A stretch of DNA of 64,000 nucleotides from Hypoxylon rubiginosum. Lineage: Eukaryota; Ascomycota; Sordariomycetes; Xylariales; Hypoxylaceae. The position numbers and the translations under genes were made by a program. Below, one piece after another: positions 24,820 to 57,697 of the stretch. The DNA is taken from assembly GCA_902806565.1 (NCBI GenBank), contig CADCXA010000035.1, positions 26,803 through 90,802 of the forward strand. Reading direction: 5' to 3'. Position 1 is the stretch's first letter, and every line of letters starts with the position of its first letter. Under the pieces are notes generated by a model. It was not told the DNA's origin, made no database searches, and worked only from the letters and a program-made list of their open reading frames with translations.

Positions 24820-27800
24820 TTAAAGTCCGGAATTCCCCTTGCCAATCTGACTCGCCTTCGTCACCAACTCCCCAATTGCGGCCACGGATCTTCCTCCCAT
24901 TATGTCAAAGACCGGCACCTCGGCGGCAAACTCCTTCGCAATCCAGTTTCTCAGTTCTACCGCGACTAGGGAATCCACCCCGAACGCGTGGAGCGGCTGC
25001 TCCGTATCCACATCCTCAGCCTGGATCGACAGCGCGCGAGCTAGCTTCAGTGCGAGTGAGCGCACAGCTACTTTGGACCTCTCTTCGACCGATTCGGCTT
25101 GCCGAAATAGCAGCGAGAAATTGATCTGGTTTCCAGCCTGCGACGTAGGCAGCATCTTTCGAGCCTGGCTGAAGTGAGCAAAAAGAGGGCGCTGTAACAT
25201 TCCAACTTCGACCTCCTTGCCGTGAGTAAGTAGGTCGACAGGGGTTGTGACACCCATTGTGATCTGATGCTTTTGACGATAAGGTGGGTTTCGCGTCGGA
25301 TCACAGCACATGTCTAAAGCGGCCATCAATTCCTTCTCTTCAATCTGGCCATATCCTAAGTAGCCTTCAAAAGTTTGTCGAAGCGCCTCAGTTTCCGCGA
25401 CGAAACCGATGTCGCGCATTAGTCCTAGGTCAACGGAAACTGCTTTCTGGCCATGCTGGACACGATACCTGGCCAAGGAATCTTGAAATGTGCAGCCGGC
25501 GGCGTAGTTTGCCTGACTAACATTCCCGACTACGCCGGCGACTGACGAGAGCATGATGAAAAAATCCAGGTCGGCGGGAAGAAGACTGTGAAGATTCCAC
25601 GAAGTCTGAACTTTCGACAGTGCAGTGCGTTGCCACTGAACGTAGCTCATGTTATCGAAAATCGAATCCTAACTCGGGTTAGATATACCTTCTATAAAGC
25701 CCAAAGCTAGAGAGTTCCTGCTATGAAACCTGCCTCCCCGGTAAGGGGGATGGTCACTTACGTTGAGAACCATAGCCGCATTAATGCATCCTCGAATAGG
25801 TGACATTGTTCTGTCGTACTGCTCTAGCACTCGAGAGAGTGCCTTCGCCGACGAGACATCACATTTTGGCGTTACAACCTCGACGTTGTTTTTGGTAAGT
25901 TCATCGACGAGGTCATGAGCTGATTGAGATGTACACCCCGATCTAGACAGGATGATTAGGTGTTTTGCCCCTTTCGAAGCCATCCACCTAACCATAGATC
26001 GGCCGATTCCACCTAGACCGCCCACAACAAGGTACGTGGCATTCTCGTTGAACGTCCAAGTGCTGCGGTATTTGATATGTTTCTAATAAATGTCAGTCAT
26101 TGCTTAACATGAGCAGCTGGTTCCTTATTCGTACCTGTACTTGAGCATACGGATCGATTTTAATAACAATTCTTCCCGTGTTCTTCCCGCTTTGGAAATA
26201 TCGAAAGGCATCTTCTACAGCCCACACGTCGAATGTATGCAATGGCTGTGGATGCCGAATCCTTGTATCTCTGGCCAGTTCCATTATCTTATGTAATAAC
26301 TTCCTCGCCGACTCTTTCCGGTGGGAGAATGTATGGCGGAGGTCTACAGACGAAAAGGACAAGTTATTTGCAAACCGCTCCATCGGTAACGATGCGTTTG
26401 CGTTGATATCGGCTTTGCCAATCTCGATGAAGCGGCCGTAAGGGGCGACGCAGTCTAACGACGCACGCAGACCCTCGCCGACCAGTGAATTCAACACCAC
26501 ATCCACGCCATAGCCGTCCGTTACGCGCATAACACCTTTGGCAAAGCTCAGGTCTCTGCTGTAGAAAATGTGGTCTTCCGGGATATGGTAGTGATCCATA
26601 AGCAGCTTCTTTTTGTGGTTGTACCCGACAGTTGCGAATATCTCGGCACCGATCATTTGCGCCACTTGGATGGTTAGCTGACCCGTCGCGCCGGAGGCCG
26701 CGTGGATAAGGACCTTCTCGTTCGTTTGCAGACGCCCGAGCTCCACCAGGGAATACCACGCGGTAACTCCGGGACTAATTACTGCGCATGCTTCTTCGAA
26801 GCTGACGGAATCCGGAATCTTTACCGTGGCCCACTCGTCGGAACGGGGGTAGGCCCGCATACAACCAACCGCGCACATACAGACTCGATCGCCAGGTTGA
26901 ATCGAGCTGCAGCGGGAGCCGACTCTCGTCACGGTACCCGCACAGTCTGTGCCAAACCCATCTTCCTGTAAGCGTCCCAATGCGCCGAACATGTCGCGAA
27001 AGTTGACTCCCCAGGCTCTGGCCTCGATCTCGACTTCAGAAGGTCCGAGTTCGGTGTAGTAGTCCTTATCTTCCACGAATTGCAGCGTTTCAAGCGACCC
27101 ACGGCTTCCGATATCAAGCTTCAGTGGTGGTCCATCGATCCATGAACCATTTTGCTCCTGGGAGTGGAGATAGGAATTCACGTCTCTGTTGGCTTCCATC
27201 TCTTCAACAAGTCTTCCAGTCAAGATCTTCCCGCCTCGAACTACGTACTCGACTTCGGGCGAGAGCTTTCGAAATGCGGTATTGAAGACCTTGCAAATGA
27301 TATCGATGCGAGCTTCCATGCCCAATGTCGCATCTTCGAAGGAGAGCGAGACCAGGCGTTTGCTGTTGAACTCCGACCGAAGCGTCCGAAGTAGGCCATC
27401 TTTCAGCCCAGGATATGGTAACAGTACTGAGTCTGGTTCATCAGAGACGTCTAAGGAAGATACCCAAAGCAGGCTTTTCGACTGCTGTATGCACCCCTGA
27501 ATGAGCCTAAAGGTGGTCTCAGACATCTGGCTCAACACAGACATTCCCATATCACCAAGGAACAGAACGCAAGTGCTTTCTGATATTTTTTGGTCTGCCA
27601 ATTGCGCAATAGTTATGATTGTTGGTTGTTCGCCATCAAACAGATCAATAGCCTCGTTAGCTACTGATGATGCTACGCTTAACTGGTAGTCGTCGTCGTC
27701 GTTCACAACGATGAGGGTCCTCGGGCCTTTTACCCAAAGCTGCGCGTTGTCCAGGGCCGTGGAAACGATAAAGCTTGCGTAATGCGCAGCGTCGTCCCGG

Positions 27801-30800
27801 TAGTCTCTTATGATCATATCGTTTCCCGAGAAACCGTTCTTTCTCAGCAGCGCATCCCATTCGGCCCCCGTAATCGTAGGACACCCTGCGCGAAAGTCTT
27901 CTTCGCTGCGCCACCAACCGGGCAGTATGCCGAAGCCGAAGCTCATTACGAAGCAGTCGGGCGCGGTGGTTTCATGAAATACCAGGTGGCCTCCTGGCCT
28001 TAACGCGCGTCGAAGGTTCTCCAGGGTAGCAGTGAGGTTACTGGTCGCGTGCAACACACCTCCAGCTATGATCATGTCATAGCTGCCCGGATCGAACCCC
28101 TGTGTAGTGATATCTTGTTCGAGGTCCAGGAGTTTGTACGTCATACGATCTTGGTGTTCCACAAACTGCTGCCGGGCTTCTTCGAAAAAAGCCGGAGAAA
28201 TGTCGGTGTAAGTGTATTCGGCAAAGGCAATTCCCCCCGTGCGTTCCTCAAATCCCTTGAGAGCTGGGAGGATGCGGCTGGTAAGGCTGCCTGTGCCCGC
28301 GCCGACTTCTAGTATTTTCTGGGTCGGAGTTTGATGTGCTGATAGTTCCAGAAAGGAGATGAGTCTCTGGTCGAAGACGCGATTGTAGAATTCGAAATAC
28401 ACATCTCGCGCTCGAGAGCCGGAGAAAAGGAATTCCAGGGCATCAATCTCGCCGCGCACGATAGACCGCAGGTTTCGAGCCACATCGATGAACAGTCCCC
28501 AAGAAGGTCTCCTCCGTTTCAGGTCTTCAAGCTTATCGTTCAACTGCTCTTCGCTGACTTCGATGGTCAACTGGCTTGGCACTTTATGAACCTGTCTCTT
28601 GATCCAAGAGACGTATTTTTCCATGTGCGGTGGTGCCTTGGACCATTCCTCCGGCACTAGACTGTGGGCATTGTGTGCAAGGACCGTTCGTAAGGCCCAC
28701 TCCAGTTGGGTACAGTACTCGACGGCGCTGCTTTCATCCCGGAAGTCGTCGTCTATAGCGCAATGCTGACGTAGCTGGTCCGGACTCAATAGAGATAAGT
28801 CAGGCTTCCAGTCGATACTGTGAAATAGCTTCCTACTACTATCGCTTCTCGTTTCTGGACCCACTATGGGTAACATTTCTAAACGTTTGACATGGCAAAG
28901 GGGGGACCCTTCGTCTGCCAACGCGGTGAATGAGCAGTCCAGCCCTTTTATCGTTGCCTTGAACTTTGATGTCGTCAGCATTCGGATTTGGTTCGTGTGC
29001 GGATACTGCCACCCCGACGCAGATATCCAGGTATCGTGGAGCTTATGGGGAATTATGGTCGGCAGCTTATCAGACATCCCATTCGATGGGGCCGCAAAGC
29101 ATACTTGACAAGCAGCATCGAGCACGGCGGGATGGACTATCCCATCGAACGGTTCGGTAGGGGGGCCCACGTCCACCCGCGCCACACCACGTTCGCCGCC
29201 ATCCCAGCCTATTTCTTCAGCTAGCGAGAAAGCTTTGCCGTACTTGAGGCCTTGATCGTGGTGCCACTTGTAGAAGCTTTTCTCGCTTATATGGTTGGTG
29301 CACGCGTCTTTTGCGTCCTCGTAATTGCCAACGAGGGCTTGGGCGAAGGCACGAGCCTCATTTCCGCCATCCACCTCCGTCGAGGGCTCTTCATACTCGG
29401 TGTGTATTAAGGCCTTGAAGCATTCGCTCCAATGGCCGCCGACCAGAGCGAACACTCGAACCTCGGACCGCCGTGAGGTCTTCTCGTAGGGCTGTTGAAG
29501 CGGGCGCAGTTTGGTCATGACTTCGGTCTGACCCTCCGGCCTGACGATGATTGGGTTTGAAAAGGTCGCCTCTTTTATGAGGTAGGCTGAGATGGCTTCA
29601 GGGGCTTGGGACGTCTGCCGCACGGCTTCCAGTGCCATAGTGAGTGTTCCGGTGCCCGGGAAGAATATGGTGTCGCCGACAACATGATCCGCAATCCACG
29701 GGATTCTTTCGACGCTCAGATAATTGCGCCATTGAGGCTCCAGCGGGTTCCAGTCCGTGGTTGGGATGCCCAATAGGCTGCCGGCGACTGACTTCCGGAG
29801 GCGCCATTCGCTGCTGAGTCGGGACTCGTAGTAATATAGCTGCGAATGGTCGAACGGGTACTCAGGGATATTCACTAGAAATGGTGCTGGTCGCTTCTGG
29901 GTCTCTTGTCGGTTGGCTGACGTGATAGAGACAGCATAGCCTCTCGAAAAGAGGCGGCCAGCCGTATTCAACACAGTTTTCACCGGCGAGTCAAATCTGG
30001 TCATAATAGACGTATAGCTGTAGCCTTTGCTACCAAGGACTTGGCCAAGAGTGTCGCAAATGGGTCTCCGCAACGCCCCATGCGGTCCGATCTCAATGTA
30101 CTCAGATATCTGCTTGTTATCTACTTTGGGTGCCACCACCGCGAGATACTGCAGCGCGTCGTTCAGTCTCACAGGAGACACTAGGTTATCGACCCAATAT
30201 TGACCGTCAGATGTGGTCGTGTAAGAAATTGGTTGGCCGGTTACGGATGAGACCATCAAGACGTCCTCGCCGGATGGTATTCCAGGGTCTAATATCCCTA
30301 AACACGAGAGGTACTCGGCAGCTATAGCTTGCATAATTGGTGAGTGATACGCGATTCCTATTTTCAGTTTCTGTGCGAAAATTCCGTCTTTGTCGAGATA
30401 AGACTTGAGCCTATCAATCTCGGAGTCGTATCCAGAGATGGTTACGTTGAACGGGCTGTTGATACAAGCGACATACATCTCCGAGCCAAGAGAGAATCTC
30501 TCCAAGTAAGCATAGGCGTCGCTCTCCGAAAGGTTGACAGACATCATAGCGCTCGGCCTCGACAGGGAGGAAATCAGCTGCCCGGCTAGCCGGCCTCGGT
30601 GGTAGGCGACCTTGCAGGCAGATTCGAAGGAGAGGGCACCGGCCGTATACGCCGCAGCAATTTCCCCAGAGGAATGGCCTAGAACTGCAGCTGGCTTGAT
30701 GCCAAAGCTCCTCAAGAGCTCCACGAGGGCAATCTGGATAGCGGTACATAGGGGCTGGCTGAGCTCGGGTCTGTTGATATTTTCTCCGGTTTGAATTTCC

Positions 30801-33156
30801 TCTGCTTCCAGTTAGCAAGCTTCGACCCGAAATGCGCAATTCTTGCTTACGCACCTAGCAATGTCCATTTAGCCCCCAGTTTTTGAAATACGCTGCTGGC
30901 CCTACCCATTACGTCCTCGAAGACGGGATATTGGAGCAGCTCCAGGCCCATCTTAGGGTGTTGCGCGCCTTGGCCGGTGAAAACAAACGCAAGGCCCGGG
31001 TTGCGCGCCGAGCGAATAATGTTAGACGTAGAGGCGTTTAAGAGGGAGGCGGAATCAGGCGCGGAGCCCGGCTCTACGAGGGCAAAGGATCTCCATGTCA
31101 TAGGGCTCCGCCGAGCAGCAAGTGTGTAAGATAACTGGCGTAGTAGCTCTTGAGAGCCGGCTACGTGCGTTTCGTAATAGCCGGCGTTGCGTTGCAGCAT
31201 TCGCTTCAAGGCGGCTTCATCCTTTGCCGACCATACGAGGATCTGGTACTTGGTGGCCGACTTGTGTATCTCTGGAGTGGTTGTCTCACACAATTTTTGC
31301 ACGGGAACTTCATTAGTTTGGGCGGCATGCGTATAGTTACCCTCTTGAGATGAATCAGGATGGCCGTTTAGAAGCCGCGCAGGGTTCCCGGATAATACAG
31401 CGGTGGACACTCCGTTCATCACCGCAACCTCTCTAGTGTTCCCGTTAGTCAAAGTCTTCTTGAGTATAGACCTCTCTTTGATAAGGCCAGGGGCCACTGG
31501 CGATATTGAAGTGCAATGGAGCCCTTCGATACCAAGTTCTCGAAGGGTATGGTATGCGTCATCCATGATGATGTGCCCGTTGGAACCCCCGAAGCCAAAT
31601 GAGTTGATCGAAATGCGACGAAGACCGTCCGTTGGCCACGAAATGCAGGACGTTGGAACCTAAGGCGATCAGCTTCCGTGATAGATAGAATCGGAATAAT
31701 GGGTTTACTTGGATATTGTAAAACTTGGCATTGATGCTAGGATTCATTTTCTCGAACAGCGGATTAGGCGGTATGATGCCCTTCTCCAGGATCATGATGC
31801 ATTTGAGTATGCCGGCAAGACCACTACCCCCCTCGAGATGGCCAATATTGGCTTTTATAGACCCACTATCCATTAAATTAATAGCTAGGACACGTTTACA
31901 ATGAGGGGAATACTGACACATAGAGTGGCTCTGTGGAAGAACGACTCGCTCTGAAGACACGTCCCAGAGCATTAAGTTCGCCAGAGTCTCCGACCTGGGT
32001 TCCAGTGCCTTAAATGCCCAATTAGAATATATCGGGCTACGCAAAGGAAAGGAATACCTTACCATGAGCCTCTACATATCGTGTAAGTCCCAGTTCAAGG
32101 TGACAGTTCTTGTACACTTTTCGGATCAGCTGCTCTTGCGCGGCGGAACTTGGCTGAGTTATGCCGGGTGTACGACCGTCCTGGTTCGACCCGGTCGCCC
32201 GGATGACAGCACGAATCATGTCTCCATCCCGTACCGCGTCAGAGAGCGTTTTAAGAACCACGACGATAACTCCTTCTCCTCTCGCGTAGCCGTTGGCGCG
32301 GTGGTCGAAGCTGTACGAAAGGCTGTCGGGAGACAGAAAATTCATATTCGTCATATAAAGGGAGTTCTCGATCGTTAGAATGACGTTGGATCCCGTAACA
32401 AGTGCCTGTCAACCAGTTAGATACTTATACCAGCTTGCTCCTAGGGGTCAAGAAATACCATCGAACTCTGGCCACTTCGGAGTGATTGACAGGCGAGATC
32501 CATCGCAATCATGCTGGTAGAGCACGCGGTGTTGAGCTGAATACTTGGACCCTTTAGATCAAAGTACCAACTGAGCCGATTAGCCAGGATAGCAGGTGAG
32601 GATCCCGTAGCGGTATTGGTTGGCGCATTGTCCGGGTCTTTCGCAATGACCTTTATATAGTCATCCGCCATAGACCCGGCGAACACTGCCGTATCTGTTC
32701 CTGCGACTCTCTCAGCGGGGATCCCGGCTTTTAATCATTAGCTTTGGTTACGAAAAAGTGCTAATAACTATAGACGGATGACACACAGTTTTCCAAAGCA
32801 TGATACGAGGTCTCCAGTAGCAAGCGCTGCTGCGGGTCCATGGAAGCCGCCTCTTTGGAGGTAATTGAGAAAAAGGGGGCATCGAAGGCAGCTGGATGCT
32901 CTTTCATGAAATGCCCTCCTCTCGATTTGACCTTTATACTGCAGTATTAGCTGTCGAATTCATCTGAGGAGCTGGATGGCCATACCGTGTTGGTCGTAGC
33001 TGAAGTTGAATGGTAGAAAGCATCGACGTTGGCTCGTGATTCTGGCCAATCCGTCATGACGTTTCTACCACTTTCCAACATATCCCAGAGGCTAGAAGGA
33101 TCTTCTACGTCCTGGGGCAGCCTGAACGAGAAGCCTATGATAGCAACTGGCTCCAT
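24820..33156 (-). CDS. highly reducing type I polyketide synthase, KS-AT-DH-cMT-ER-KR-ACP, no release domain
   Basis: Ten exons on the minus strand: 33156-32986, 32931-32787, 32727-32459, 32405-32063, 32008-31918, 31865-31709, 31659-30855, 30801-26135, 26082-25762 and 25668-24820. They total 7818 bases, 2605 residues. Catalytic features: KS Cys174 in NTACSTS with EAHGTGT and [10 protein letters not shown] Ser704 in GHSSGE; DH His1033 in DHVVGD...PG with Asp1222 in LDAACQ; methyltransferase LEVGAGTGS near 1492; ER with GVNFRDMFG near 1924 and HAASGATGQ near 2027; KR nucleotide loop GGLGGIG near 2236 with NYAAG; ACP Ser2556 in GVDSLVAVE. All appear intact. It ends about 50 residues after the ACP serine with no thioesterase, reductase or condensation domain, so product release needs a partner. 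The alpha-oxoamine synthase at 39150-40704 is the obvious candidate. Expected product: a C-methylated, largely reduced acyl chain. Fumonisin-type synthases share this domain order. Confidence 0.95.
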
Positions 33157-34404
33157 GATGCTGGAACTGTAACCTAGGGGATGATCTGATGTTCGTAAAG
33201 GGGTTTGAGATTTCAAGAACAGAATGGTTACGCTGAAAGCGTCGGATGCCACACGCCTACGTATAAGTCATGATAATAAACAACGCCGGAGGCAATATAT
33301 ACACAAATATATATCATTCGAATATTTTTCTCTACCATAGAATCGAAGCCACCCGTGCCGTAGTTAGAACAGCCTGCAGCCAACAGGTCGTTAGGCTCAT
33401 GTCGTCCTCGGTGATAATGACATTGTCACACCCTCTCACCTGTTGATTGACTGCACCGCAGATATTCACAGCCTTGGAAGATAGATAGATGCCTGCGAAC
33501 TCGAGGCGCAAAACCGGGACTGAAACAGGGTACCACCTAACTATGCAACGCGTAAGGGTAATATTTTTCTAAACGCCTTATAGGCCAGTCTGGATTTTGG
33601 GGGCGGAATCATCTCCATTATGAGGTTGAATTCGCGAGTGGTACATCGCAGGTTGCGCTGAATGGAGCCTAAGAACACAGTCTTTCTGCCTACTACTTTG
33701 TGAGTGGTGAATAATGACCGTCTATACGACGTAACTAACGTTGCGAGACAAAGTAACGGAAACAATCAGTCGCCACGGATAAGATTCGTCCAGTCCAGAC
33801 AGCCAGGGCCAAGATGTGATCATCCGATGCCTGCCTTAGCGGCGTAGCAAGATTCAGTGTAACAGTTCTATGTAGATTGCCTGCAGATCGCTGTAGCGCC
33901 GGCCCGCGCCCCCAAGCTGAAAGTGACCGCTACGAAATGCGGGGGAGGTATACCGTTTGACCGTGACGAGGGTCTTTTGGATCGTGATGCCTGTAGAGCT
34001 TGCTCGCTGATTCCCATGTCTACCTACTTATTAGACGGTCACCAAGTATACCAACCTAAGGTACGCTTTTTGACATGAGGCTGCCATGTCAAGCTTAGTA
34101 GGATCACTGAGATGCTAGATATGTTATAATGTTACACAAGGTACCTAGGTATCTACCTACGTGTAGTCTTTCTCAACCTTGAACACTAGCATCCACAGGC
34201 ACTTATTGCGTAAACATTTAATATGATAGCCAAGTATCTATGTATTATTGTTTGTTGTTTGTAGTATTGATAATTATGGGCCTCTAGCATAGGTCGTAAG
34301 GGGCTACATACCAAGTAAATATGTAGCAGGTGATTACATCTAGACGGCTAAGTCGAGCGACTACGCATTCAGGCACTGAAGCTCATGGTGTGGACGCTTC
34401 ACCC
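33157..34404. promoter_or_regulatory. PKS upstream region
   Basis: About 1.25 kb between the PKS start and the stop of the reductase gene, both on the minus strand. It must contain the PKS promoter. A TACCTAGGTA palindrome lies at about 34143-34152. I see no gene and no regulator-binding array I can define. Short open frames here have no recognisable product. Confidence 0.45.
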
Positions 34405-35591
34405 CTACCGGAATGCGTCTCCCTTGCACTTCTTCTCCACGTCACGTCTAATAAGAGGGAAAAGAATGCTTGCGAGCAAAGCAAGCAACGAGTCCACTAT
34501 TCCCCACCCTCTCTTAGGTGACGACCCCAGCCCGCTCGCCCAGAGAAACTGAGGTTCTAGCCTCTTGTCCGTGACAGCAAAGTCGTTGCTTGCCACCGCC
34601 GCCACAATCTCCGGCGCTATCTTGGCCGCATATGGGAAGTGCTTCTCCAGAGTAGCGAGATCGGTAGCCGTTGTACCCTCAATCCGCTTGCAGAGGTCGG
34701 GTTTCATCTTCTGCTCCTCAAGGAATGTCTGCGTGATGTAGTTGTGGGCAAAGATGCACTGCACGGCGTAGGTAGATTTCGGGCCAGAGTACCGCATGAC
34801 TTCGAGCCGCATCGTGTCTGCCAGGGCACGTTGGGCTGCTTTGGCAGCTGGAGCAGGTCAGTTTAAGCCTCAGGTCTGATGATGGAAAAACGTACTCGAG
34901 TATGCAAGATATCCCGGTACTGGTACGAGGGAGGCGGAGCTGTTCACAAAAATAATCTTGCGAAGTTTAGGACTGGGTGGGATTTCGGCATTTGCATCGT
35001 CTTGTATCCATCTTTTTAACACTGCCTGGGCTGGGTATAGGCTGGAATAATAGTTGTTTGTCATGCAGCGCTCAAAGACCTGAGGCTCAAGGTCGACCAA
35101 AAAGCCGCATTCTGTAGGCGTGCCGCCGGCGACGCAATATAGCACGTCGGGAAGTTGAGGCTGGGAATCGAGGATCGAATGAGCCTATTTCGATTGTCAG
35201 AAGAATGAAACGGATAGGGAGAGCGATATAGACACGGACATTAGAAGCAATCCCCATGTCGCCAGCTACGGCATTGATAATTTGTGACTCGACATGTCTA
35301 GCTGCGAGGATCTCATTTCTGGCCTCATCGAGAAGGCCTTGCTTGCGACCGAAGATTGTAATATGGGCGCCTGCCATGGTGAGAAGCTTATCGGAATGGA
35401 CTTGGTTTAGTCGTTTCGCGACATACCTTGACCTGCCATCACCTTGGATATCTCCCTTCCAAGCCCCCCAGAGCCTCCAACGACAAACACGGTCTATTTA
35501 CCAGGTACATTAGCATCTGTATTGAGCAAAGCGCATAGCAAGATATCTTATTCCAACTCACCTTTCCATCGAGCTCATTTGCACTTCCCAT
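34405..35591 (-). CDS. short-chain dehydrogenase, 3-ketodihydrosphingosine reductase (KDSR/TSC10)-like
   Basis: Five exons on the minus strand: 35591-35562, 35493-35427, 35370-35240, 35184-34896 and 34847-34405, 960 bases, 319 residues. The cofactor loop is GGSGGLG (residues about 16-22), the active-site serine region NSSAS, and the catalytic YSTAK (Tyr171, Lys175). The segment after YxxxK (RALADTMRLEV..., then EEQKMKPDLCKRIEG) and a hydrophobic C-terminal helix (IVDSLLALLASILFPLI) followed by a basic tail match endoplasmic-reticulum 3-ketosphinganine reductases rather than generic SDRs. Such enzymes reduce the 3-keto group of a 2-amino-3-ketone with NADPH. Being next to an HR-PKS and an alpha-oxoamine synthase, it most likely reduces the cluster's aminoketone, as proposed for Fum13 and SphF. 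Alternatively it could be a spare housekeeping enzyme giving self-protection. The first exon is only 30 bases, and start choice rests on frame continuity. Confidence 0.85.
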
Positions 35592-36572
35592 TGTTGCAAA
35601 ACAAGAAAGTCGCTTGATGGCGCTCGGGATGGTGAGTGAATGGCAGGTGGAGTTGTAGGTGCCAGGCAAATAGGAGGTATGTTTCTTAGACGCGACCCCG
35701 CATAAGCCACTTTCAGGGGCGGAGGGTTGTTGGTCACACTATTCGATTCAGGGGCTAACAGTTATAATGATACGGAGATAGAATTCGACAGTTTTATACC
35801 AACCAACACCCGTTTCGTTACAAGTAGGAAAATATTTAAGTACTACGATGTATGAATTCATTGGCTTGGCTGTATAAGCTCCTGTTTGATTCGAAAATTA
35901 AATGGCACATGCTGATCTGATAACTGCTGGGCAATCGGTCTAGAAAAAGTACCCAGGTACATAGTAGAACTAACACTTGATATGATGCCGTTGGGGTTGG
36001 GGGCGATTCTTGGCACTATCGTACCACCTTGGCTGCTTGGCTGCTTGGCTGCATTCTATTTTTCAACGCGGTACGGGCCGGATCACGGTGCATGTCAGCC
36101 TGCTTCAAATTGGAACAATCTGCTTAACGTAACGGTAATAGGGCTATAGTCTCGCATGCGCCTCTCAGCCGCAGCGGGTGCAACACGCAGATCACCCAGC
36201 TTGCATCCACATCGGACCGGAGGAAAAATGGAAAGGTCTCGACGGGTAGGTCGTTGGTCGGTACACCGCAGAAGGATCTTGAGGTATCATTTGGATGCTG
36301 GTGTGCGGCGAAAGCTGGCTGAAGCAGCGCAGTTGAGTTAGTGGTGTCAAGCGGGGATTCTGCCTCACACGATATCGATCCCAAGCCAATATCGGCAGTC
36401 AGCCTATGACAACTGGTAAGAAAAGAAGGGAAAATATAGTAGCATCATCCGTCGATCTTCTAAAAGCATATGTCCAACTAGCTGTTCCAATCTACTTCCC
36501 CCACCGTTGAATATCATCACTTCGCGCAACCACATCGATCATTCGTTATTCACTAATCTACTATCTCTTACC
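35592..36572. promoter_or_regulatory. divergent promoter region of the reductase and 7-TM genes
   Basis: About 980 bases between two divergently transcribed cluster genes, so probably a shared bidirectional control region. It contains a direct ttggctgc repeat (three copies near 36029-36052). No coding sequence is supported. Confidence 0.5.
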
Positions 36573-37875
36573 ATGGCATCTGACGAAGAGCAAGCTGCAT
36601 TCATCGAGGCTCTTCTCGAAGGTCCCTCGATGGAGCCGCCAGCTGGAGTTGACCCAAATTTTGATGATCCCGGTGGTAATCATACCATAGGGTACGCCAT
36701 TATTATCTTGGGGTCTACGCTTGCAACCATGGCCATTCTCTTGCGGTTGTGCTCCAGGGTCATCCTAAAGAGAATCAAAATTGAAGATGCCTTGTTTATT
36801 TCAGCATTAGTTTGTCTAAGCGAGAATGACCCGATACTAGGATGAAGTACTGACCTCCCCAATCCCAGGGTCTTTATGCTGGGCACCAATACGTTTTCTA
36901 CGAAATGTCAATATTCCCAGGTCTCTGGGTCCATCAATGGAACTTTCAGCTAAAGAACATCTCACACATTTCCTATGTGAGTCCATTATAACATATTAAT
37001 CCAAAAAGGCTAAGGCTAATCGAGAAGAACATTCACATTGGCTCGGTTTTCTATGGCCTCACAATAATGTGTCTCAAAGTTGGTATTCTACTGGACTGGG
37101 TGCGCATATTTTGTCCCGTTGGTACTCGCAATGCCATGCTCTGGATATCCCATGTCATCATATGGGCGAACATAGCATTTTATGGCATTGGGACCATGGT
37201 GGAACTATTCCAGTGCACGCCCCGCGAGAAGATCTGGAATCCGCTGTACGAAGGAGGGAGCTGTCCGATGAATATGCACGCTCACAATTTCGCCTCCGGA
37301 ATATTCAACATCATATCAGACCTCGTAATTCTTGCTGTACCCCAGAGCATCATATGGAAGCTCCAGATGTCGACATCGAAGAGGATCGGAGTGTCCCTAC
37401 TCTTCACGATTGGAATCTTGTTAGTAACTAAGATATATGTCATAGCTACCTGTGGCCTTCCGCTAATATTTCCTTCTAAAGTGCCTGCGCATGCGCAATA
37501 GCTCGTCAAGTTCTTATCAATACACTAATCCGTTCCGACGATGTCATTTATAACATCTCTTCTCTTGGTTTGTGGGACGTTGGAGAAATTACGGCTGGGT
37601 TCATGATCGTGGGCATCCCTTCACTTCCTCAAGTCGTCAAGAAAATCCCCTTAACCGAGTCTGTGGTGTCGCTTGTCCGGATTTTCACACGCAGCACCCA
37701 CAGTGACCTTCATAGCACTCCCAAACAGGAACTCCCGTTATGGATGAAACCCCGGGGGCAGAAAGCCCCCCGTCACTGGGATTCTATAATTACGGATGAA
37801 TACAACATGAGCTCGGTGCGCAGCACTGATTCTACTGTCGGTCTCCGTCGAAATGTCGAGGAAGTGCCGCAATAG
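36573..37875 (+). CDS. PTH11-like integral membrane protein (fungal rhodopsin/GPCR-like domain)
   Basis: Four exons: 36573-36809, 36869-36976, 37028-37419 and 37482-37875, 1131 bases, 376 residues. The N-terminus is hydrophilic and acidic. About seven hydrophobic segments follow, starting with IGYAIIILGSTLATMAILLR. Family-typical motifs are present: IKIEDALF after TM1, LKVGILLDWVRIFCP around TM3, PREKIWNP in the extracellular loop and LGLWDVGEITAGFM near TM7. The last 75 residues form a soluble tail. This is the Pezizomycotina-specific family named after the Magnaporthe receptor PTH11, whose members are candidate G-protein-coupled sensors. It lies between the reductase and the alpha-oxoamine synthase, so it is physically inside the cluster. 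Whether it belongs functionally is unknown; a role in sensing the product or a precursor is speculation. Confidence 0.85.
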
Positions 37876-39149
37876 ATGAGGGCTCGGGATGGGACATGAA
37901 GCTCGTGGTATAAGCTTGAGTCAACGGTGGACTAGTTTGGTACTGTACTTTAGAGACTAGAATTTAGATATTCTTATACCAATTATTCGCAAAGGTACTT
38001 TTCCATCTGGGCGACTCGTTGGAGAGAGGCATTAATTTGGTTACTGTGATAAATTGTTATGAGTAAACAATTCACGTCATAAGGCCAACTACACGATAAG
38101 GGTTAAGGAAATAAATTTGTTGCACGAGGAGTTACTTGCACACCGAGGCAACCCCTTTCCCTCCGCTCTAGCCCCCATCCCAGACGATAAACCACCTAGG
38201 CCAACACCAATCGTGAGCCAAGAGGCTTCTCGTCCTTTACAGCTGCTATGCTGAGCCCTTCTCATATCCATCAGACCATGTCTTTGTACGACTACAGTTA
38301 CTTTGGTGTGCTCTCCCTACCTAAGAAAACTTAGGTGGGTGGCCCGATGCCAAGTCTGCCCACAGAGCCAAGAGGTCATCGCCAAGGTAGCCTGCAGGAC
38401 CCCCTCCCAAGGCAGCCTGATTGATGATCAGGATCTTAGCATGCCTTACCACCGTTTATTTATCTATTTTGTGATATTGATCGGCTGCTGGTTCGAATCC
38501 TTCCTATCGAAAACTCAGTAACCTATCGAGGGGCAGACCTTCTGTTGTTCACCAACGATGCAGATGCACGTCGGATGTTGCCTGTACGTGACATATATAT
38601 ATGAGGAGGTGCGTAGGCACCCAGGTATGTAATACGACACCGTCCAATTATTTGATTGCGTCTAAATTTAGATGCTCGCAAGAATTTACTCTAATAGTAC
38701 GAGTATATTTCCTCTCCGAAAACCCCGATATAGCTACAAGTCTCGAACCAACTGCCGCCTAGGACTGGCTTGGCGATCGGATCAAGCACATCTTGTATCT
38801 GAAGGTACCTGCAACTTAAGTAGATTGAATGCATACAATACGTTATCGTGTGAAGTTGTTGGCAGAATATGAAGCAATGGCGAAAGCTTGACCACGCCAC
38901 AACTAAATGAAGTCTTTTCACTTATAGCAATCTATTTACAAGCACTTTGACGTAATTTGATCTTCCAATGGTGCGGTTTGTGAGTGCCTAAGGTAGGTAA
39001 GGTATCAGCCCTGCCATCTACTCCGTTCCCAAACTCAGTCGGGGGCCACCACCAGCAAGTGAATCTCTACGATAGTTTCGCGATTCTTTTCTTTCGTTTT
39101 CTCCAACGCCGTGTCCATCACCTTCAGCCAGGTTGGCAAAGGAAGCAGC
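37876..39149. other. intergenic region upstream of the alpha-oxoamine synthase
   Basis: About 1.27 kb. No gene is supported. It contains a B-box-like GGTTCGAATCC at 38490-38500 without a foldable tRNA around it, an atatatatat run near 38592, and ggtaggtaaggt near 38992, close to the synthase start. Confidence 0.4.
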
Positions 39150-40704
39150 ATGGACCTGTCAAACGGTCAATCTATTATTTCGCCAACCAGCCCTCTTGTG
39201 GCTCGAATAAGAGCTCAGAAGGTGGACTCGCGCTCAACCAAAGGTCTTCCGACCTTCTATCGCAACCTCGAAGAAGCTCTGGATATACGTCGCTCCTCGC
39301 AGTCTCTGTGCCCCATCGTCCAGAACAGCTGGCAGGTAGGCGACGCGGTGGACTTCTGCTCTAACGATATCCTGTCGCTGAGCGCCAGCGGGGCCCTACG
39401 TACGGAGTTCCTGGCCGAGCTATCGAGCCATCCGGATTTCAGCACCGGGTCCGGCGGCTCGCGGCTCATCGACGGGAACTATCCGTACCTCGAGGAGGCG
39501 GAGCTGGAAATCGCCGAGTTCCACGGCGCGGAATCCGGCCTGATTCTCGGCTCGGGGTTTGACGCCAATATCGCGATCTGGACCGCAATTCCTCGGCCCG
39601 GCGATCTCATCGTGTACGACGCATTAGTGCATGCGAGTACGCACGAGGGAATAAGTCAAAGCCTTGCCATACAGAAGGTCGAATTCAAGCACAATGACGC
39701 GGAGTCTTTTCGCGAGGCGTTGCTTTCGATCCTGAAAACTCAGCCACTGGTCAAGCAGGGCAGGAGATCTGTTATCGTGGCGGTAGAATCCGTGTATAGT
39801 ATGGATGGGGATGTATGTCCGTTACGAGAACTTGTGGATATTTCCAAAGAGCTTTTTGATCAGCAGGGAAATATTCAGTTCGTGGTAGACGAGGCACATA
39901 GTACAGGAATTATCGGGCCAAAGGGCTCCGGCCTTGTTTGTGAGCTTGGCCTAGAGAAAGAAATCGCATTGAGAATGCACACTTACGGAAAAGCGATGGG
40001 TGGAAGTGGAGGTGAGTCCCTTCTTTTAGACTGGTTTCTCGAAAGCTCACGATCTCACAGCAACAATTCTCGGAAACAAAACGACCAAGGCCGGTTTGGT
40101 TAATCTTGCGCGATCCGTTGTCTTCACTACCGCGCCCTCTTTCCCTTTCGTCGCGTCCATCAGAGCGTCATATGCCCTACTGCAGAGAGGCGAGACCCAA
40201 CAAGTAATTAAGTCAAACTGATTTCCCCTATCACTATCAAAGTACTCAAACAAAAAATAGGCTCAGGAGCGCGTGCAGTCCCTTGTCCGGCTCTTCTTCG
40301 AAGCGGTAACGTCGCACCCCCTTTGGCATCAAGCCCGCAATAGGGGTCTACTCTCCGTCCCATTAACAGAGGGCTGGGAAAGCCGACCTTTTGCCACACA
40401 CATCGCAACTCTGTGGACTCGGCAAAGATACCTTTACCCCCTGTATTTTCATATTCTCTCGTCCTCCTATTGTGTTTTCCCTGTCGGCCCTCCTGCTGTG
40501 CCACTTGGCCAGAGTCGGCTAAAGGTCACGTTCCATGCAAGCAATACTGAGAAGCAGGTCCAGGGCTTAACTCATGCAATATTTGAATGGGTACAGGAGG
40601 TTATGGCCATTGAAAATGGCACCACAGATAAAAGGTTATCTAGGGCTGCGGAGACTGTATATAACTGGATGAGAGCTGAGGGCTTGAGTGGTTTCGGAAT
40701 GTAG
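39150..40704 (+). CDS. alpha-oxoamine synthase (PLP-dependent, class II aminotransferase fold; BioF/KBL/ALAS/SPT family)
   Basis: Three exons: 39150-40011, 40061-40203 and 40261-40704, 1449 bases, 482 residues. The start is the ATG before DLSNGQS. Family landmarks: DFCSNDILSLS near residue 70, STGSGGSRLIDG (substrate and cofactor contact), VDEAHSTG with Asp247 and His250, and TYGKAMGGSG with Lys281 as the Schiff-base lysine. ARSVVFTTAPSFP follows. Enzymes of this family condense an acyl thioester with an amino acid and lose CO2, giving a 2-amino-3-ketone. In fumonisin and sphingofungin pathways the homologues (Fum8, SphA) release the PKS chain this way. Here no other release function exists, and a ketosphinganine-reductase-like gene is close by. 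It is a single-domain enzyme, shorter than Fum8, with an N-terminal extension of about 55 residues relative to bacterial BioF. A biotin-pathway KAPA synthase is the alternative. Confidence 0.88.
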
Positions 40705-41275
40705 TCAGGACAGGGTGAATAGATACCAGGTACCTAGGTAGGCGGAGTAGATAAGCAGGCTGACAGCAGAGACCATCGTAAATTAATTAATATATGTATT
40801 CAGTATTCTCTGAGCTTGGCTACTTCTATAGCACACTTGTCCTAATCCCACTCATCCATTTCTTGAATTGAACCCCTTTTTACATTTCCGTATAAAACGT
40901 CAGACTATGGTGGGTAACACCAGAGATACGTAAATACCCGGCCACACAGACCGACGGCACCTATAGTTACATTTGATGCCGATCGTTTAGGGGCGGCGCC
41001 AAGGATGTGATGGCACCTAATGTAGGTATAATGAAACCCCTTTCTCCGTACCAACCAGCCGCCAATCATCAATGTCATGATACGATGTACATTGTACGTC
41101 GGTCAGAGCTGTTGACGAATCATCCAGATAACTTTGTGTTACATGAGTTCTGAGGGACACCCGGACTGACGCAGACGGGCTACCCCCATTATCAACAGAG
41201 CGCGGCAGAGAAAAGAGAAATACCTGCGTTCTTCCTCGGCCATTTACTTCAATTCTAGCTCATGGTACTGGCACG
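40705..41275. other. intergenic region between the oxoamine synthase and transporter
   Basis: About 570 bases, with a TACCTAGGTAGG motif at about 40730-40741 just after the synthase stop. It should hold the promoter of the MFS gene. No open frame is supported. Confidence 0.4.
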
Positions 41276-43044
41276 ATGGATTCAACGCGCAAGTTAACCG
41301 TGACGACGTTGGATGTATCTACCGGTACGATGAAGTCCTCACCATCCGCGCTTCCGGGAGGAGATCCAGAGAAGGAACAGAATGATACCGGTGACATCCC
41401 CATACGCCAGGGGGAAGCCCAGAAGAAAAAAACATTCGGCTTCCACATGTCTTTTCTTGCTCTCCTCGTCATGTGCTTCATCGTTTCAATTGACGGCACT
41501 ATCCTCGCTATTGCAATCCCAGTATATGCTTCCATCCATCCCACCGTCTAAAGAAATATGCTCATATTGTCCAGGTTATAACCCACGAACTACATGGCAC
41601 AACCTTGGAAGCATTCTGGGCCAGCATATCCTTCGTCCTGGCAGTTGTCATTGTTCAACCCATCTACACGAGCGTGTCCAACGTACTTGGGCGTGTGATC
41701 CCACTCTATACCTCCTTTCTGCTATTCATACTCGGCTCCATAGTCTTTGCCTCCGCCAGAAGCATGGGCGTCCTGATTGCTGGCCGGGTTTTCCAGGGGC
41801 TCGGCTCAGGGGGTCTGGATGTGCTCAACGAGATCATTCTCGCCGATATCACCACTTTGAAGGAACGCCCTCTATATCTGGGCCTCCTAGCAGTCCCGAT
41901 GGCTGGAGGAACAATCCTAGGGCCTATTGTAGGCGGTCTACTAAGTCAATATACCACATGGAGATGGATTGGGTGGATCAACCTGCCAGTGTCCGGGATA
42001 GGACTTCTTCTGGTCGCCCTTTTCCTGAGGCTGAAAACAATCGATCGATCTTTCCGGCAAAAGCTGCGACGGCTGGATTGGAGTGGGTTGCTTCTTTTTA
42101 CTATCGGCTGCACGTTATTCACCTCCCCGCTCGCGTGGGCCGGCGCGATGTTCCCATGGTCCTCCTGGAGGACATTACTTCCCTTTTGCCTAGGAGTCGC
42201 CATTCTCTTCATTTTTGGGTGGTACGAATCCAGGTCAAAGGATCCGGTCTTTCCGTACCGAATATTCAAGAGCCGCACTGCGTCGACCACCCTTCTCGCC
42301 TCATTCCTACACGGCTGGGTGACCTTCAGCATCATCTTTTACCTGCCCTTGTTCTTCCAGGCCGCATACCTAAACACGCCGTTGCAAGCCGCCGTATCAA
42401 TACTACCGCTCTGCGCCACATCCGTCCCTTTTGGGATCATCTCGGCAGTCGTGGTTGAAGTGGTTCGTAAGTACCGCGTGCTTGTACTAGCTAGCTGGGT
42501 CTTCACCGCCGTTGGTACTGGCCTCTTCACACTCTGGAGCCAGTCCGCCTCGCTCGCCGCGAAAGCTTCTTTTCAGATCATCTTCGGTATTGGAACCGGT
42601 ACGCTTTTCTCCATTCTCAACCTTCCCATCCAAGCCAGCGTCCCCCGTATAGATGACATGGGAACCGCAACCGGCATCCTAGTCTCGTTTCGTCTATTTG
42701 GAGCGCTGGTTGGGTTGGCCGTATGCTCGACGGTATTCAACAACGTGTTTGCTTCTCGGATCAGTCTCCTAGGGGCTTTGCCAGATGCCATGGCTATGTT
42801 AAGTGACGGCCGAAACGCGATCGAATTCATCCCTCTGCTTATAAATATAGATGTTGTGCCAGAGCTACTGGAGAGCGTCATTGAAGTGTATAGGTATTCC
42901 ATGTTCGTAATATTCTGGATGCTGGCGGGGATAGCGACAGCGGGTTTCTTTGTTTCCCTTCTGATACAAGAGAAATCTTTGGAGAAGGAAGAGCTGGGAA
43001 GACAGCAGTTCGAGGATCGTGCATCGACCACCCCATGCTCCTAA
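41276..43044 (+). CDS. MFS transporter, 14-TM drug/metabolite exporter type
   Basis: Two exons, 41276-41521 and 41575-43044, with a 53-bp intron, 571 residues. A hydrophilic, Lys/Glu-rich N-terminus of about 55 residues precedes 14 hydrophobic segments. Motifs include DGTILAIAIP at the end of TM1, GRVFQGLGSGG in TM4 and the antiporter-type GGTILGPIVGG in TM5, as in DHA2-like fungal toxin and drug efflux pumps. The predicted role is proton-coupled export of the cluster product across the plasma membrane, by inference from family and position directly downstream of the alpha-oxoamine synthase. The gene appears intact, with a charged C-terminal tail. Confidence 0.9.
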
Positions 43045-49454: not shown

Positions 49455-49639
49455 TAAAATAAGTTAAAATTATAATATATATAATTTTTATATTATATAA
49501 ATACACTAAGTTTTTAATAAATTAATATATTTTATTAATTTAAATTATAAAAAACTTATAATAATTAATTATAATTATATTTAAATTTAAAATTAAATTT
49601 ATTATATTCATAAAATATTTATAATAATATTTAAATTAT

Positions 49640-49745
49640 TATAAAATTATTATTAAACTATTATTAAACTATTATTAAATTATTATTAAATTATAATTAA
49701 ATTATTATTAAATTATAATTAAATTATATTTAAATTATAATTAAA
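49640..49745. repeat. short-period A+T tandem repeat
   Basis: The motif attattaaac/t, about 10-12 bases long, is repeated roughly nine times with small changes. Confidence 0.6.
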
Positions 49746-52700
49746 TTAAGATTTTTATATTATATTAAAAACTTTTAAAATTTTTAATTAAATTAATAAT
49801 TTTAATAATATAACTTATTATATATTAAATAATAATTTTTTTATTTATTTTAATTTTAATATTTTAATTATTATATATTAAAGTTTTTTAAGTTTTTATT
49901 ATTTTTAAAGTTTAAATAAAAAATATATAATTTTTATAATTTAAATAAAAAGTTTAATTTATTAATATTAAAAAAAATATAAACTAAGTTTATTTATATA
50001 TAAAATATTAATATTAAAATAATATAATAATTTTTAAATTTATAATTTTATTATTTAAATAATAAGTTTTATATATATATATAATTAAATTTAAAAACTA
50101 TATATTAAAAAATTAATTAATTTTTTTTTATAATTTATATAATTTATTAGTTAAAATAAATTAAAGTTTTTATTATAACTTTAAAAACTTATTTAAAAAT
50201 AACTAATTATAAAAACTTAAAACTTTAAAATATAAATTTATAAATATAAATAAAATAATTATTATAAATAAATATTATTTATATTTAATTTATTTTTTAC
50301 TTAAATAAATACTAAATAAAAAAAAATATTAAATATTATATAAAATATTATTATAAGGTATTTTATTAATAAAAACATTAATATTATAAAATAATAATAT
50401 TATTACGAAATTATTTAAATAATAAAAGAAATTAAAATATTATTATATAAAAAGTAATAAATTTAATAATTATAAACATTTTTATATATATAAAAATAAT
50501 AAATAAAAAAACTTATTAAATAAAAATATTTATTATATTTATTTTTAATATTTTTAATAATATAAACATTTAATATTATTATTTTAAAAACTATAATTTT
50601 TTAAATAATAAAAGCTAGATTTTTATAATAAAACTTTAATTTTAAACTTATATATTAATATTATAATAATTAATATTTAAAAAATCTTAATTTTAAAAAA
50701 GTTAAAATAAATTATTATAAAAAACAAATTAATAATAACTTAAATAATATTTTAGATTTTATATATTAAATATAAGCTTATTAAAAAAAGCTTATAAAAA
50801 TAATTAAATTATTATTATATATATTTTTATAATTTAATTTATAAGATATTTAAAATATATTTAAAATAAGATTTTTTTTTATAATTTAAAATAAATAATC
50901 TAATTATAGTTTTATATATAATATATTTTTAAAAAGATTTATAAAAGTTAAATTATTTTTATTTATTATAATATTAAATATAATATAAAAAAAGTTATAT
51001 AAGTTTTAAAAAACTAATAAAATTAAAACTTTTAATAAATAAAAATAATAATTTTTATTATTTAATATTTATTTATTTAATACTTATTTATTTAAATATA
51101 TATTTAAATACTGATATTTTAAATAATAAAATAATATTTAATAAACTAAATAAATATTTATTTAAATAAAAAATAATTAATAATTAAAATAATTATATTT
51201 ATTATTTTAATAGTTTATATATTATAAATATATATTAAAAAAATAAATAATTTATAATTACTATAAAAAATTATATATAAATTTTTAGTATTTTTTAAGT
51301 TTATTCTTTTATTTTTAAAATATTTAATAAATAATTATATAATTATATTTATTTTACTTTTATTTATTTTTTTACTTTATTTAATTAAACTATATATTAT
51401 ATTATTTTATTATATAAAAACTTATTAAATATTAATATCGGTTTTTTTTTATTTTTTTTTTATTATTTTAAATAATTCTTTAAACTAATATATTTATTAA
51501 AATATAAATAGTTTTTATTTTTAATAAATTTTAATAAATGTTATATTAGTTATTTATTATAAATTTATTATATTTTTAAAGCTTAAAAAACTATTAAAAT
51601 TATATTTATATATAAGTTTTTTTAACTAATATATTAATTTTAATAATAAAGAATAAAAAATTAAATTTATAATATAATTCTTTATTTTTATATTACTTAA
51701 GTTTATTTAAAGTTTATTAATATAATTAATAATTTTATTTTCTTGTTATTTAATAATATAAATATTTTATAAATAAATATATTAAATTACTTTTTATTAT
51801 AATAAGTTTTTTAAAATAATATATATTATAATTTAAATATAAAAATAATATTTTTTAAATAAACTTAAATTATATAAACTTTTAAAATATTATTAATAAT
51901 ATAATATTAATATTAATATTTAATAATATAAATATTAATTTAAAAAAAAAGCTATTATTATTTAATTTTTATATTATATTAATTTATATAAAATTTATAT
52001 AACTTTAAAATATATATATTTTATAAGTATTTTACTTTTATTTTATTTATAAATTATATAATTATTTAAAACTTAATTTATATAATTAATTAATATTATA
52101 TTTAAGTTATAAAAGAAATTTTAATTTTATAATTTATATATATTATTTAAGGTTAAAATCCTAATATAATAATTATTTTAAAATATTAATTAATTATATT
52201 TATAAATAAATTATTAAATCTATTAATATTATATTATATAATTTTATAAAAATAAATATTAATATTTATATAAATCTTAAATTTAATAAAATAACATTTT
52301 TAATATTTATTTATGTTTTATAATTAATTTAATTTTAAAATTAAAAAAAATCTTTATTTTTTATTATAATAAACTTTTTTTAATTATATTAATAATTTTT
52401 AATTTCCAGGTATATTCAAATATATTTAAATTAAATTATACTTTTAAAAATAAATTATTTTATAATTATATATATTAATTTAAATTACATTTTTTACGTA
52501 ATATAACTTTTATTAATTTTTCATGTAATATTTAAATTATATATATTTTACCCCGCTTATTTTATATTAATAACTTTTTATATAATTAATTATATAAAAA
52601 TATTAATATAAAGCTTTAATAATTATTATAAATATATATTTTTAATTAAAATTATAATTATTTATAAAACTTATTATATTTTTTTATTATATTTTTATTA

Positions 52701-55700
52701 CTTATTTATATAAGCTTTATACTTTATTTTAATTTTATATATAATCTTTTTTAGTTTTAATTTTTTATTTTATATGTTTATTTTTTTAATATATATAAAA
52801 ATTATTATAATATTTTAACATTTAGTTTTTTATAATTAAAAAATATTATATAATATTTTTATAATTTATTTAATAATTAAATAACTTTTATTATTATTTT
52901 TATTTATAATTTATTAATTTACTTTTTATAATAATCTTTTTAAAATAATTATAGTTAGTAATATAATTAATAGTTATTTTTTAAAATATTTTTATAATAT
53001 AATTTTAAAAAGAAATTATTTTAATATATTTAATAATATATTTAAAAATAAAAACAATTATTTTATTAATTATTAAATAACTTTTAATAGTAATTTTTAA
53101 ATATTTTACTTTTTTTTATTTAACGGTAAAAAAATTTATTTTTATAATTTATTTTTCATTTTTTTATTTTTCTTATTACTTTTTTAAAACTTTATAATAT
53201 TTATTTAAAATCTATTAAAAAAAGGTTTATAAAAAGGTTTTTTTTTTAAATAAAATAAAACCTTTTTTTAAATTATTATAAAAATATATATAAAATTATA
53301 ATTATAAAGTTTATTACTTATAAACTAGTAATAAAATAAGCGAAAAAACACCTAGATATTATATTATTAAATATATTTAAAATAAGTTAAAACCGTTATA
53401 AATTAAAATCTATAAAAAAGTTAATTATAATAAAAAAATTAAATATATATAATAAAAACGTATAATTTATATTAATTATAATAATAATTAAATATTTTAT
53501 TTTTATAAAATAAATAATATATATATTTATAAAAATATATAATATATAATTAATAATTATATTTATTAATAATTTAATAAAAATTATAAATAATATATAA
53601 AAAGTTTATATAATAATAATATTTATATATTTATAATTATTATTTTTTTAAAGTTAACTTTCTTAGATATTTTAATTATATTATAAAATATATATAATTA
53701 TATTTTAAAAATTTATATATAAAAGTTTTAAAACTTTATATTAATTTAAACTTTTATTAAAATAATTAATAACTATAAATTAAAATACGTAATTAAATAT
53801 AAAAAAATAAATTTTAATTACTTTAAATATATTTTCTAGTTTTATTTAAAATATTAAAAATTTCTTTTAAATTTTAATAAGGTTTTATTTTTTAATTATA
53901 CTTATAAAATAAACTAATATAAAATACCTTTTATAAATATTACTAATATTATTAATAAAAAAATAATATTTAATATTAAGTTTATTATTTTACTTAATAA
54001 AACGTAAAAAAGTTATAATTAAATTATAATATTATTTATTAAACTATTAAAAATATAAAACTATTTTTTATTTAAAATTATTATTTTAAATTTTTAAAAA
54101 TAATTTAAATAAATTACTTTAAAATAATTATTAAACTTATAATAAATCTTTTATATTTTTTATATAAATAAAAATATTTATTATTAAATTATAAGAAAAT
54201 AATAATAATAAAGTAAAATAAAAAAATATAATAAACTTAAAAAATATTTAAAATAATAATATTAATATTAAAAGTAATAATATTATAAATAAATTAAACT
54301 TTTATAAATTATATAAATTAAATAATTATACTTATTAAAATAAAACCTTTTAAAATTTTATAATTATTTTTAATAATATCACTTTTAATTATAAAAAGAT
54401 TTTAATTTTATAAGCTTATATAGTTTATATAAAATCGAAAATAATATTTAATAAAATATAAAATTATTTATAAGTTATTTTTAATAATATTTAATAAAAT
54501 ATAATTATTTATTTATAAATAAAATATTTATTTATTAAAAAATAATAAACTAGATACTATATATTTTAATATTATAAATATAATTAATAAACTATATCTT
54601 TTATTAAATTAAATAATTATAATATTAAAATATATTTTAAAATTAAAAATAAAACCGATCTTTTTAAGCTTTAAAAATTATTAAAATATATAATAAAAAA
54701 AGAATTTATAAATTTTAATAAAAGTTTATAAATAAAGTTAATAAAGTTTTAATAATATTATTTGGTTATTTATTAAACTAAAAATATATTTTAAATTTAT
54801 ATAAAATTTACTTTTAATTTTATATTAAAATAATATTATAAAATATATAGGTTTTTATTTATATAAATTAATCCGATTTTATAAAAAGCTGTTACTATAT
54901 ATTTATATTATTTAAAATTAATATAGTTTATTTTATTATTATAAAATCTTTAAAAAGTTTAAAATATCTAATAAAAACTTTAAAATATAAGGAATATTTT
55001 ATAAAAAAATTAATTTTTAATAGCGTTTAAATAAGTTTATTATTAAAACTTAAATAAAAATAAATATATTTAAATATATATATTATAAAAACTAATATTT
55101 ATAGTTTTATAAAAAAATAATAATTAATTTTTTTAAATAAAAGATTTTTATATTACGAAACTTTATAATTAATTAAGAAATACGTTTAATATTTTATTTT
55201 AAATTATATTAATATTATAAATTATATTTTAATTTTTATAATTTTCTTTTATATTATAATTTATTATAATAAAAATTAATTAATAATAATAATAATTTTA
55301 TATTTATAATAATAAATTAAATAAAAAAAAAAAAACCTGGAAGATTTTATAAAATTAACTTTATTAATTAATTAAACTAAGTTTTATAATTTTAATTTAA
55401 ATAAAACCTTAATAAATTTAATAAAAAAACTTAAATAAATAATAATAAATTATTAATTAAATATAATTATAAACAGTTTTATAAAAACATATATTTACCG
55501 TTTATTAATAATATAAATAATTAGCTAGTAAAAAAAATAAAAATAAACTTTAAAAAAAAGTTTTATTTATAGAAATTTTATTAAATAAAAGTTTTAATGT
55601 TAATTTTTAACTTAAAAAAATAAGTAATATAAAAATATATATAACTTAAAAAAAAAAAATATTATTAAATTATTAAATAATAAATTTAAATCTAATAAAT

Positions 55701-57475: not shown

Positions 57476-57551
57476 ATAATTGAAAAATAATAAAAAATAA
57501 TATATTAATATTTAAACCTTAAGTATTTTAAATATTATAATATAATATAGC

Positions 57552-57697
57552 TTTAATATCTTATAATTAAAAAACATTATAAGTAATAATAAATATAAAA
57601 AATATATTAAAAATATATTAATTAATATAAATATTTAATTAATATTAAAATATTATATATAATAAAAATAATATTTAAAGAAAAACTATTTTAATAT
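57552..57697. repeat. dispersed direct repeat, copy 1
   Basis: About 146 bases, nearly identical to 58661-58805. The few differences I see include C/T changes. Confidence 0.75.

Follow-up and report, generated by a model that had tools for sequence, protein, structure and literature searches.

Four neighbouring genes in a stretch of Hypoxylon rubiginosum DNA, encoding a highly reducing polyketide synthase (HR-PKS), an alpha-oxoamine synthase (AOS), a short-chain dehydrogenase/reductase (SDR) and a major facilitator superfamily (MFS) exporter, very probably make up an intact-looking sphinganine-analogue ('SAM'-type) pathway. The stretch, here called the window, is 64,000 nucleotides long (positions 26803-90802 of contig C35 in a 48.3-Mb, 70-contig assembly) and its right edge is the contig end. 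A first-pass annotation had placed these four genes and a PTH11-like receptor gene within 18 kb. The five-gene set was confirmed, all of its members being located at or near the proposed positions between 24820 and 43044, which are the stop codons of the PKS and MFS genes, respectively. Only GT..AG introns were allowed in fitting the gene models, and the splice sites therefore follow by construction; the four resolved models (PKS, SDR, AOS and MFS) contain no internal stops. The five genes are as follows.

24820..33156, minus strand: HR-PKS, 10 exons, 2605 amino acids (aa), domain order KS-AT-DH-CMeT-ER-KR-ACP (Pfam, spliced alignment to P0122, active-site residues).
34405..35591, minus strand: SDR, a TSC10/SphF-like 3-ketoreductase, 5 exons, 319 aa (gene model, PDB match, adh_short).
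36573..37875, plus strand: Fung_rhodopsin (PTH11-like) membrane protein, exon borders approximate (PF20684 in 36992-37501, 90.9 bits).
39150..40704 including the stop codon, plus strand: SphA-type AOS, 3 exons, 482 aa.
41276..43044, plus strand: MFS exporter, exons 41276-41521 and 41575-43044, start codon uncertain (PF07690, 116 bits).

By analogy with established pathways, from which the offloading reaction, its substrates, the product and the activity of that product are all read across, the HR-PKS would build a reduced, C-methylated acyl chain on its own acyl carrier protein (ACP) domain. As the PKS has no release domain, the chain would be taken from the ACP by the AOS, a pyridoxal 5'-phosphate (PLP) enzyme, and joined by decarboxylative condensation to an amino acid (alanine being the likeliest), which would yield a 2-amino-3-ketone. 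The SDR would reduce the 3-ketone to a 2-amino-3-ol and the MFS protein would export the product, which is predicted to be a C-methylated 2-amino-3-hydroxyalkane, probably derived from alanine.

The PKS gene comprises exons 33156-32986, 32931-32787, 32727-32459, 32405-32063, 32008-31918, 31865-31709, 31659-30855, 30801-26135, 26082-25762 and 25668-24820. Its domain order and checked active-site residues fit the synthase of highly reduced chains that is a feature of SAM-type clusters: the KS Cys-His-His (C174, H309 and H349), the AT Ser-His (S704 and H813) and the DH His-Asp (H1033 and D1222) were present, as were the CMeT motif GAGTG, the ER motif GATGQ, KR residues S2365 and Y2378 and the ACP serine S2556, from which we infer that the chain may be fully reduced. 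The claim that the synthase ends at its ACP was borne out, the C-terminus lying 49 residues past the ACP serine and no release domain being found in the protein with Pfam. Nor was a thioesterase seen when the Pfam lists of PKS homologues (best 120 of 4779) were read by eye, 69 of these homologues extending to the ACP serine position and the others being partial.

The AOS (exons 39150-40011, 40061-40203 and 40261-40701 plus stop) fits a further feature of SAM-type clusters, a single-chain class II aminotransferase (oxoamine synthase) of the SphA type. The Schiff-base lysine previously reported as intact is K281 in the 482-aa model, accompanied by D247, H250, H161 and a DEAH motif. Among the best 120 of 7066 homologues, K281 was conserved in 118 (with 2 gaps), D247 in 120, H250 in 119 and H161 in 120; the closest named homologues among the matches listed were those of Annulohypoxylon moriforme (86% identity) and Hypoxylon sp. 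FL1284 (85%), with one further row at 96%. When the first exon plus read-through was used as the query against the PDB, the top matches were 9dos (353 bits, named 8-amino-7-oxononanoate synthase) and 9pep (SphA, 351 bits), followed by a bacterial KAPA synthase at 102 bits. A tree was built from 81 rows, comprising 72 homologues from the set of 120 (the other 48, of under 330 aa, were dropped) and nine further sequences. In this tree, SphA and 9dos grouped with an AOS from contig C21 of the same genome and with P0086, P0111, P0116 and P0118 (100/98). The window AOS grouped with P0001-P0003 (100/99) inside a 61-row clade (100/99) that lay apart from the SphA clade. Three other copies from the genome (contigs C59, C9 and C53) sat on long branches at the unresolved base, where the program warned of long branches. 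By sequence, the window AOS is therefore of the SphA type but belongs to a different clade from SphA. Its residue at the ALAS-83 position is Ser104; in the same 120 homologues this position was serine in 74, valine in 36, alanine in 6, proline in 2 and isoleucine in 2. Serine here predicts alanine as the amino acid (Kim et al., PMC7376913), and alanine is accordingly named above as the likely, although not certain, partner in the condensation.

The SDR gene lies 1.2 kb from the PKS gene and 3.6 kb from the AOS gene. Its product carries a nucleotide-binding GGSGGLG motif and the YxxxK motif as YSTAK, scored 74.6 bits against adh_short and had as its best PDB match the TSC10 3-ketodihydrosphingosine reductase 8jat (59.6 bits, the next match scoring 40.4). 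With both motifs present and TSC10 as the best match, its earlier description as 3-ketodihydrosphingosine-reductase-like holds and, given its closeness to the PKS and AOS, the SDR for the 3-ketone expected of a SAM-type cluster is present. Three of its 13 homologues carry a source name, which is 3-dehydrosphinganine reductase, and a fourth is named uncharacterized. The related sphF has been reported to rescue yeast tsc10-1, and Fum13 is likewise reported to complement a Saccharomyces cerevisiae tsc10 mutant (PMC10936153).

Pairing of the AOS and PKS genes in other genomes was assessed on contig size alone, the longest contig of each AOS row being matched to those of the PKS rows when exactly equal in size. 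Of the 120 AOS rows listed, 36 had such a match (all of them among the 78 on contigs of at least 12 kb), against a mean of 0.045 and a maximum of 2 when the sizes were shifted by 1 to 500 bases either way. The AOS belonged to the window's 61-row clade in 30 of these pairs, was too short for the tree in 5 and fell in a neighbouring group in 1 (P0082). Wherever both locus tags were printed (4 of 4 pairs), they were 1-2 apart (DL771_007287/007288, TruAng_005707/005708, SLS62_000675/000674 and AAE478_001234/001232). Furthermore, AOS and PKS identities were correlated across 37 pairs (Spearman 0.53), with none of 2000 permutations giving an equal or higher value. Co-occurrence of the PKS and AOS in many other genomes is thus indirectly indicated, and the possibility, raised in the first-pass annotation as one that would overturn its proposal, that the two never occur together elsewhere was not borne out. 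It was also observed, uncorrected for phylogeny, that the GxGxG form of the CMeT motif was lost in 6 of 14 pairs with valine or isoleucine at AOS position 83 and in 2 of 22 other pairs.

A six-frame search of the genome, in which only the best candidates were scored, returned the window AOS, copies on C21, C59 and C9 (53%, 46% and 46% full-length identity to the window AOS), a more distant copy on C53 (36%) and weaker matches on C25 (two) and C62. A middle exon of exactly 143 nt is common to the window, C21, C59 and C9 genes; the C53 introns differ. Three of the four SphA-type genes lie 2.4-6.3 kb from a ketosynthase match, compared with 37 kb for the C9 gene and 69 kb for the C53 gene. With 59 ketosynthase loci in the genome, the probability of one lying within 7 kb of a given gene is about 0.017, and that of three of four AOS genes doing so by chance about 2e-5; with the window omitted, having been chosen for its pair, two of the three others do so (chance about 9e-4). 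The 7-kb limit was set after the distances were seen.

The C21 locus contains an AOS, SDR, PKS, MFS and P450, plus a transcription-factor match just below the cut-off. As its AOS groups with SphA, the genome has a sphingofungin-branch locus and the window represents a different branch. The C59 PKS was absent from the listed paralogue rows of the window PKS and was 26-48% identical to it by pieces. At C9:76759-82060, an AOS, MFS and PTH11-like gene were observed in the order of the window, with the PTH11-like gene inverted, beside an AT-rich block; in passing, this locus may be read as a reduced or decayed relative. The closest paralogue of the window PKS in the genome is on C33 (204-234 kb, 45% identity); its first ketosynthase match is preceded, roughly 8 kb upstream, by a BAHD-type transferase, and a PTH11-like gene also lies upstream. 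Duplication of a whole cluster as the origin of the other loci was considered and is not favoured, given identities of 46-53% to the window AOS, 32% for the C21 PKS and 45% for the C33 PKS, which has no AOS.

It might be supposed that the AOS is the biotin-pathway KAPA synthase, or a moonlighting copy of it, that happens to lie beside an unrelated PKS. BioF shares with it the enzyme superfamily and chemistry, the lysine, the DEAH motif and the serine at position 83 that KAPA synthases have (rule from PMC7376913). Its best NCBIfam model is also bioF, at 175.5 bits, although the query for this score was the first exon only, which makes comparison with the cut-off of 426 unfair. The genome nevertheless holds a distinct biotin KAPA synthase gene (C53:31360-32951), the 36% identical copy with other introns, which sits between bioDA pieces (Aminotran_3 and AAA_26 domains that, being pieces, do not reach the curated cut-offs for bioA and bioD) and a bioB gene (262.5 bits, above the cut-off of 225). 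Because this separate gene exists, a biotin role as the main function of the window AOS is refuted. The AOS is also far nearer to SphA than to the best bacterial BioF (351 against 102 bits), and in many genomes a PKS accompanies its homologue, leaving this explanation scarcely credible. Grouping with biotin-pathway KAPA synthases and conservation next to biotin genes, which the first-pass annotation had named as a second way for its proposal to fail, was not borne out for the window AOS, the copy beside bioDA and bioB being that on C53, and the proposed logic of offloading by a PLP enzyme followed by ketone reduction is supported. It is very unlikely, too, that the genes are neighbours only, with the AOS acting on another PKS product and the window PKS releasing a plain polyketide. 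The AOS-less C33 paralogue and the C9 locus, where AOS and MFS occur without a PKS, would fit such an arrangement; the conserved pairing and parallel divergence over many genomes argue against it. Somewhat less improbable, although still unlikely, is that the condensation occurs but the 2-amino-3-ketone is cyclised (to a pyrrole, pyrroline or pyrazine) or otherwise tailored, so that no sphinganine analogue results. Fungal pathways combining a PKS with a PLP-dependent condensing enzyme do lead to alkaloids such as curvulamine, the ketosynthase and AOS are uninformative on later steps, and a methyltransferase and a P450 piece (48741-49046) lie 4.6 kb and 5.7 kb past the MFS gene. Against this, a TSC10-like SDR with its own motifs lies inside the cluster, and the open stretches scanned between the PKS and MFS genes, in a scan that very short exons could escape, yielded no cyclase or oxygenase family.

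Several observations nevertheless weigh against a complete sphinganine-analogue pathway or limit what can be said of its product. Of the two other PKS-AOS loci, an SDR was detectable only at C21; none was found near C59 by tblastn of 30 kb and Pfam analysis of 7 open reading frames (ORFs), an approach that might overlook a gene made up of small exons. No PKS or SDR was found near the C9 AOS, the nearest ketosynthase being the one 37 kb away. The C33 PKS paralogue has no AOS in the 30 kb examined, and the lineage to which the window PKS belongs is therefore not enough on its own to imply that an AOS does the offloading. The parallel divergence of AOS and PKS partly reflects shared species history. 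The sequence does not allow chain length or the pattern of methylation to be predicted, and the amino acid is uncertain because SphA also has serine at the ALAS-83 position yet uses aminomalonate (PMC10936153).

The MFS exporter gene is one of five in this genome that form a clearly delimited set (48-53% identity to the window MFS, then a drop to 36%, with 83 of 182 candidates scored). Four of the five, including that of the window, sit 0.6-4 kb from a SphA-type AOS, and for the fifth (C59:760325) no SphA-type AOS was found within the 20 kb examined. That four loci of a single genome combine an AOS with one particular MFS subfamily offers a marker for finding more such pathways. The PTH11-like gene was rejected as a diagnostic part: it gave 93 genome matches (itself included, exon pieces counted apart), and is for that reason weak evidence of anything, and the copy at the C9 locus was only the ninth row, below seven paralogues elsewhere. 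This Fung_rhodopsin gene is at most a putative member of the pathway.

Taken together, these data allow the tentative suggestion that the window belongs to a large branch of PKS-AOS pairs, distinct from the sphingofungin branch and extending, by organism names, over Xylariales, Pleosporales, Helotiales and Diaporthales, with three pairs (window, C21 and C59) and a PKS-less AOS-MFS locus in one genome, and that the AOS lineage may have retained its exporter but changed its PKS partner. Should this be so, many ascomycetes make several unseen sphingoid-like amino alcohols.

On contig C35, roughly 58 kb of normal GC content form an island between two blocks of 4-9% GC (window 49500-64000 and C35:1-17800) with dinucleotide indices resembling those of repeat-induced point mutation (RIP). 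The C59 and C9 AOS loci likewise adjoin AT-rich, RIP-like blocks. Just past the MFS gene (43650-45671), ankyrin and then WD40 pieces resemble parts of a fungal STAND/NLR protein, followed at 46692-49046 by 2-hydroxyacid dehydrogenase pieces, a 284-aa methyltransferase ORF and the P450 piece ending near the AT-rich edge. On the other side (15849-23466), helicase-like (AAA_11 and AAA_12) and AAA ATPase pieces appear to come from one long gene or from two. Scanning the window for Rfam families and tRNAs gave no matches. The right-hand boundary is as follows.

49500..64000, no strand: AT-rich block, 5.7% GC, RIP-type dinucleotide indices, bounding the gene island on the right and outside the pathway.

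Among the sphinganine analogues, which inhibit the synthesis of sphingolipids, are important mycotoxins as well as drug leads. The product of the window is predicted to be a long-chain amino alcohol similar to the backbone of the sphingolipids in cell membranes, and the compact arrangement of PKS, AOS, SDR and exporter offers a simple case for studying how the chain leaves an HR-PKS that lacks a release domain and how the amino acid is chosen. The first-pass annotation had not recognised a described cluster. As far as searched, this stands for the present instance, which is apparently undescribed: it is not named in the titles and abstract openings of the literature searched (most subscription papers lying outside that search), and the main text of a 2021 survey of Hypoxylaceae (PMC8403587) contains no terms beginning sphing, fumonisin, oxoamine or oxononanoate. 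It does not stand for the cluster type, described in 2020, of which the window is a further example.

Five classes of SAM cluster (SAM1-SAM5: PKS, single-chain AOS and SDR) were defined in Fusarium by Kim et al. (2020; PMC7376913), who place the PKS of such clusters in Reducing PKS Clade III and also report putative clusters from 43 species outside Fusarium, in 24 genera, 26 of these clusters having an SDR; Hypoxylon is named in the SAM1 tree, and an AOD1 deletion is among the precedents. As in the window, a PKS, a single-chain class II AOS and an SDR lie close together with few or no tailoring enzymes, and MFS is among the gene types in the Figure 3 legend of that paper, whereas a Fung_rhodopsin gene is not. 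The sphingofungin cluster of Aspergillus fumigatus likewise combines a thioesterase-less PKS (SphB), an AOS (SphA) and a 3-ketoreductase (SphF), which carry out the early steps, with an MFS protein (SphD) (PMC10936153), but SphA groups with the C21 AOS and not with that of the window, and no P450, monooxygenase or acetyltransferase genes were found in the stretches scanned between the PKS and MFS genes. The fumonisin and AAL-toxin pathways share the offloading logic and a 3-ketoreductase (Fum13); Fum8, however, is regarded as a protein in which Lcb1- and Lcb2-like parts are fused (PMC7376913), whereas the window AOS is a single chain of 482 aa.

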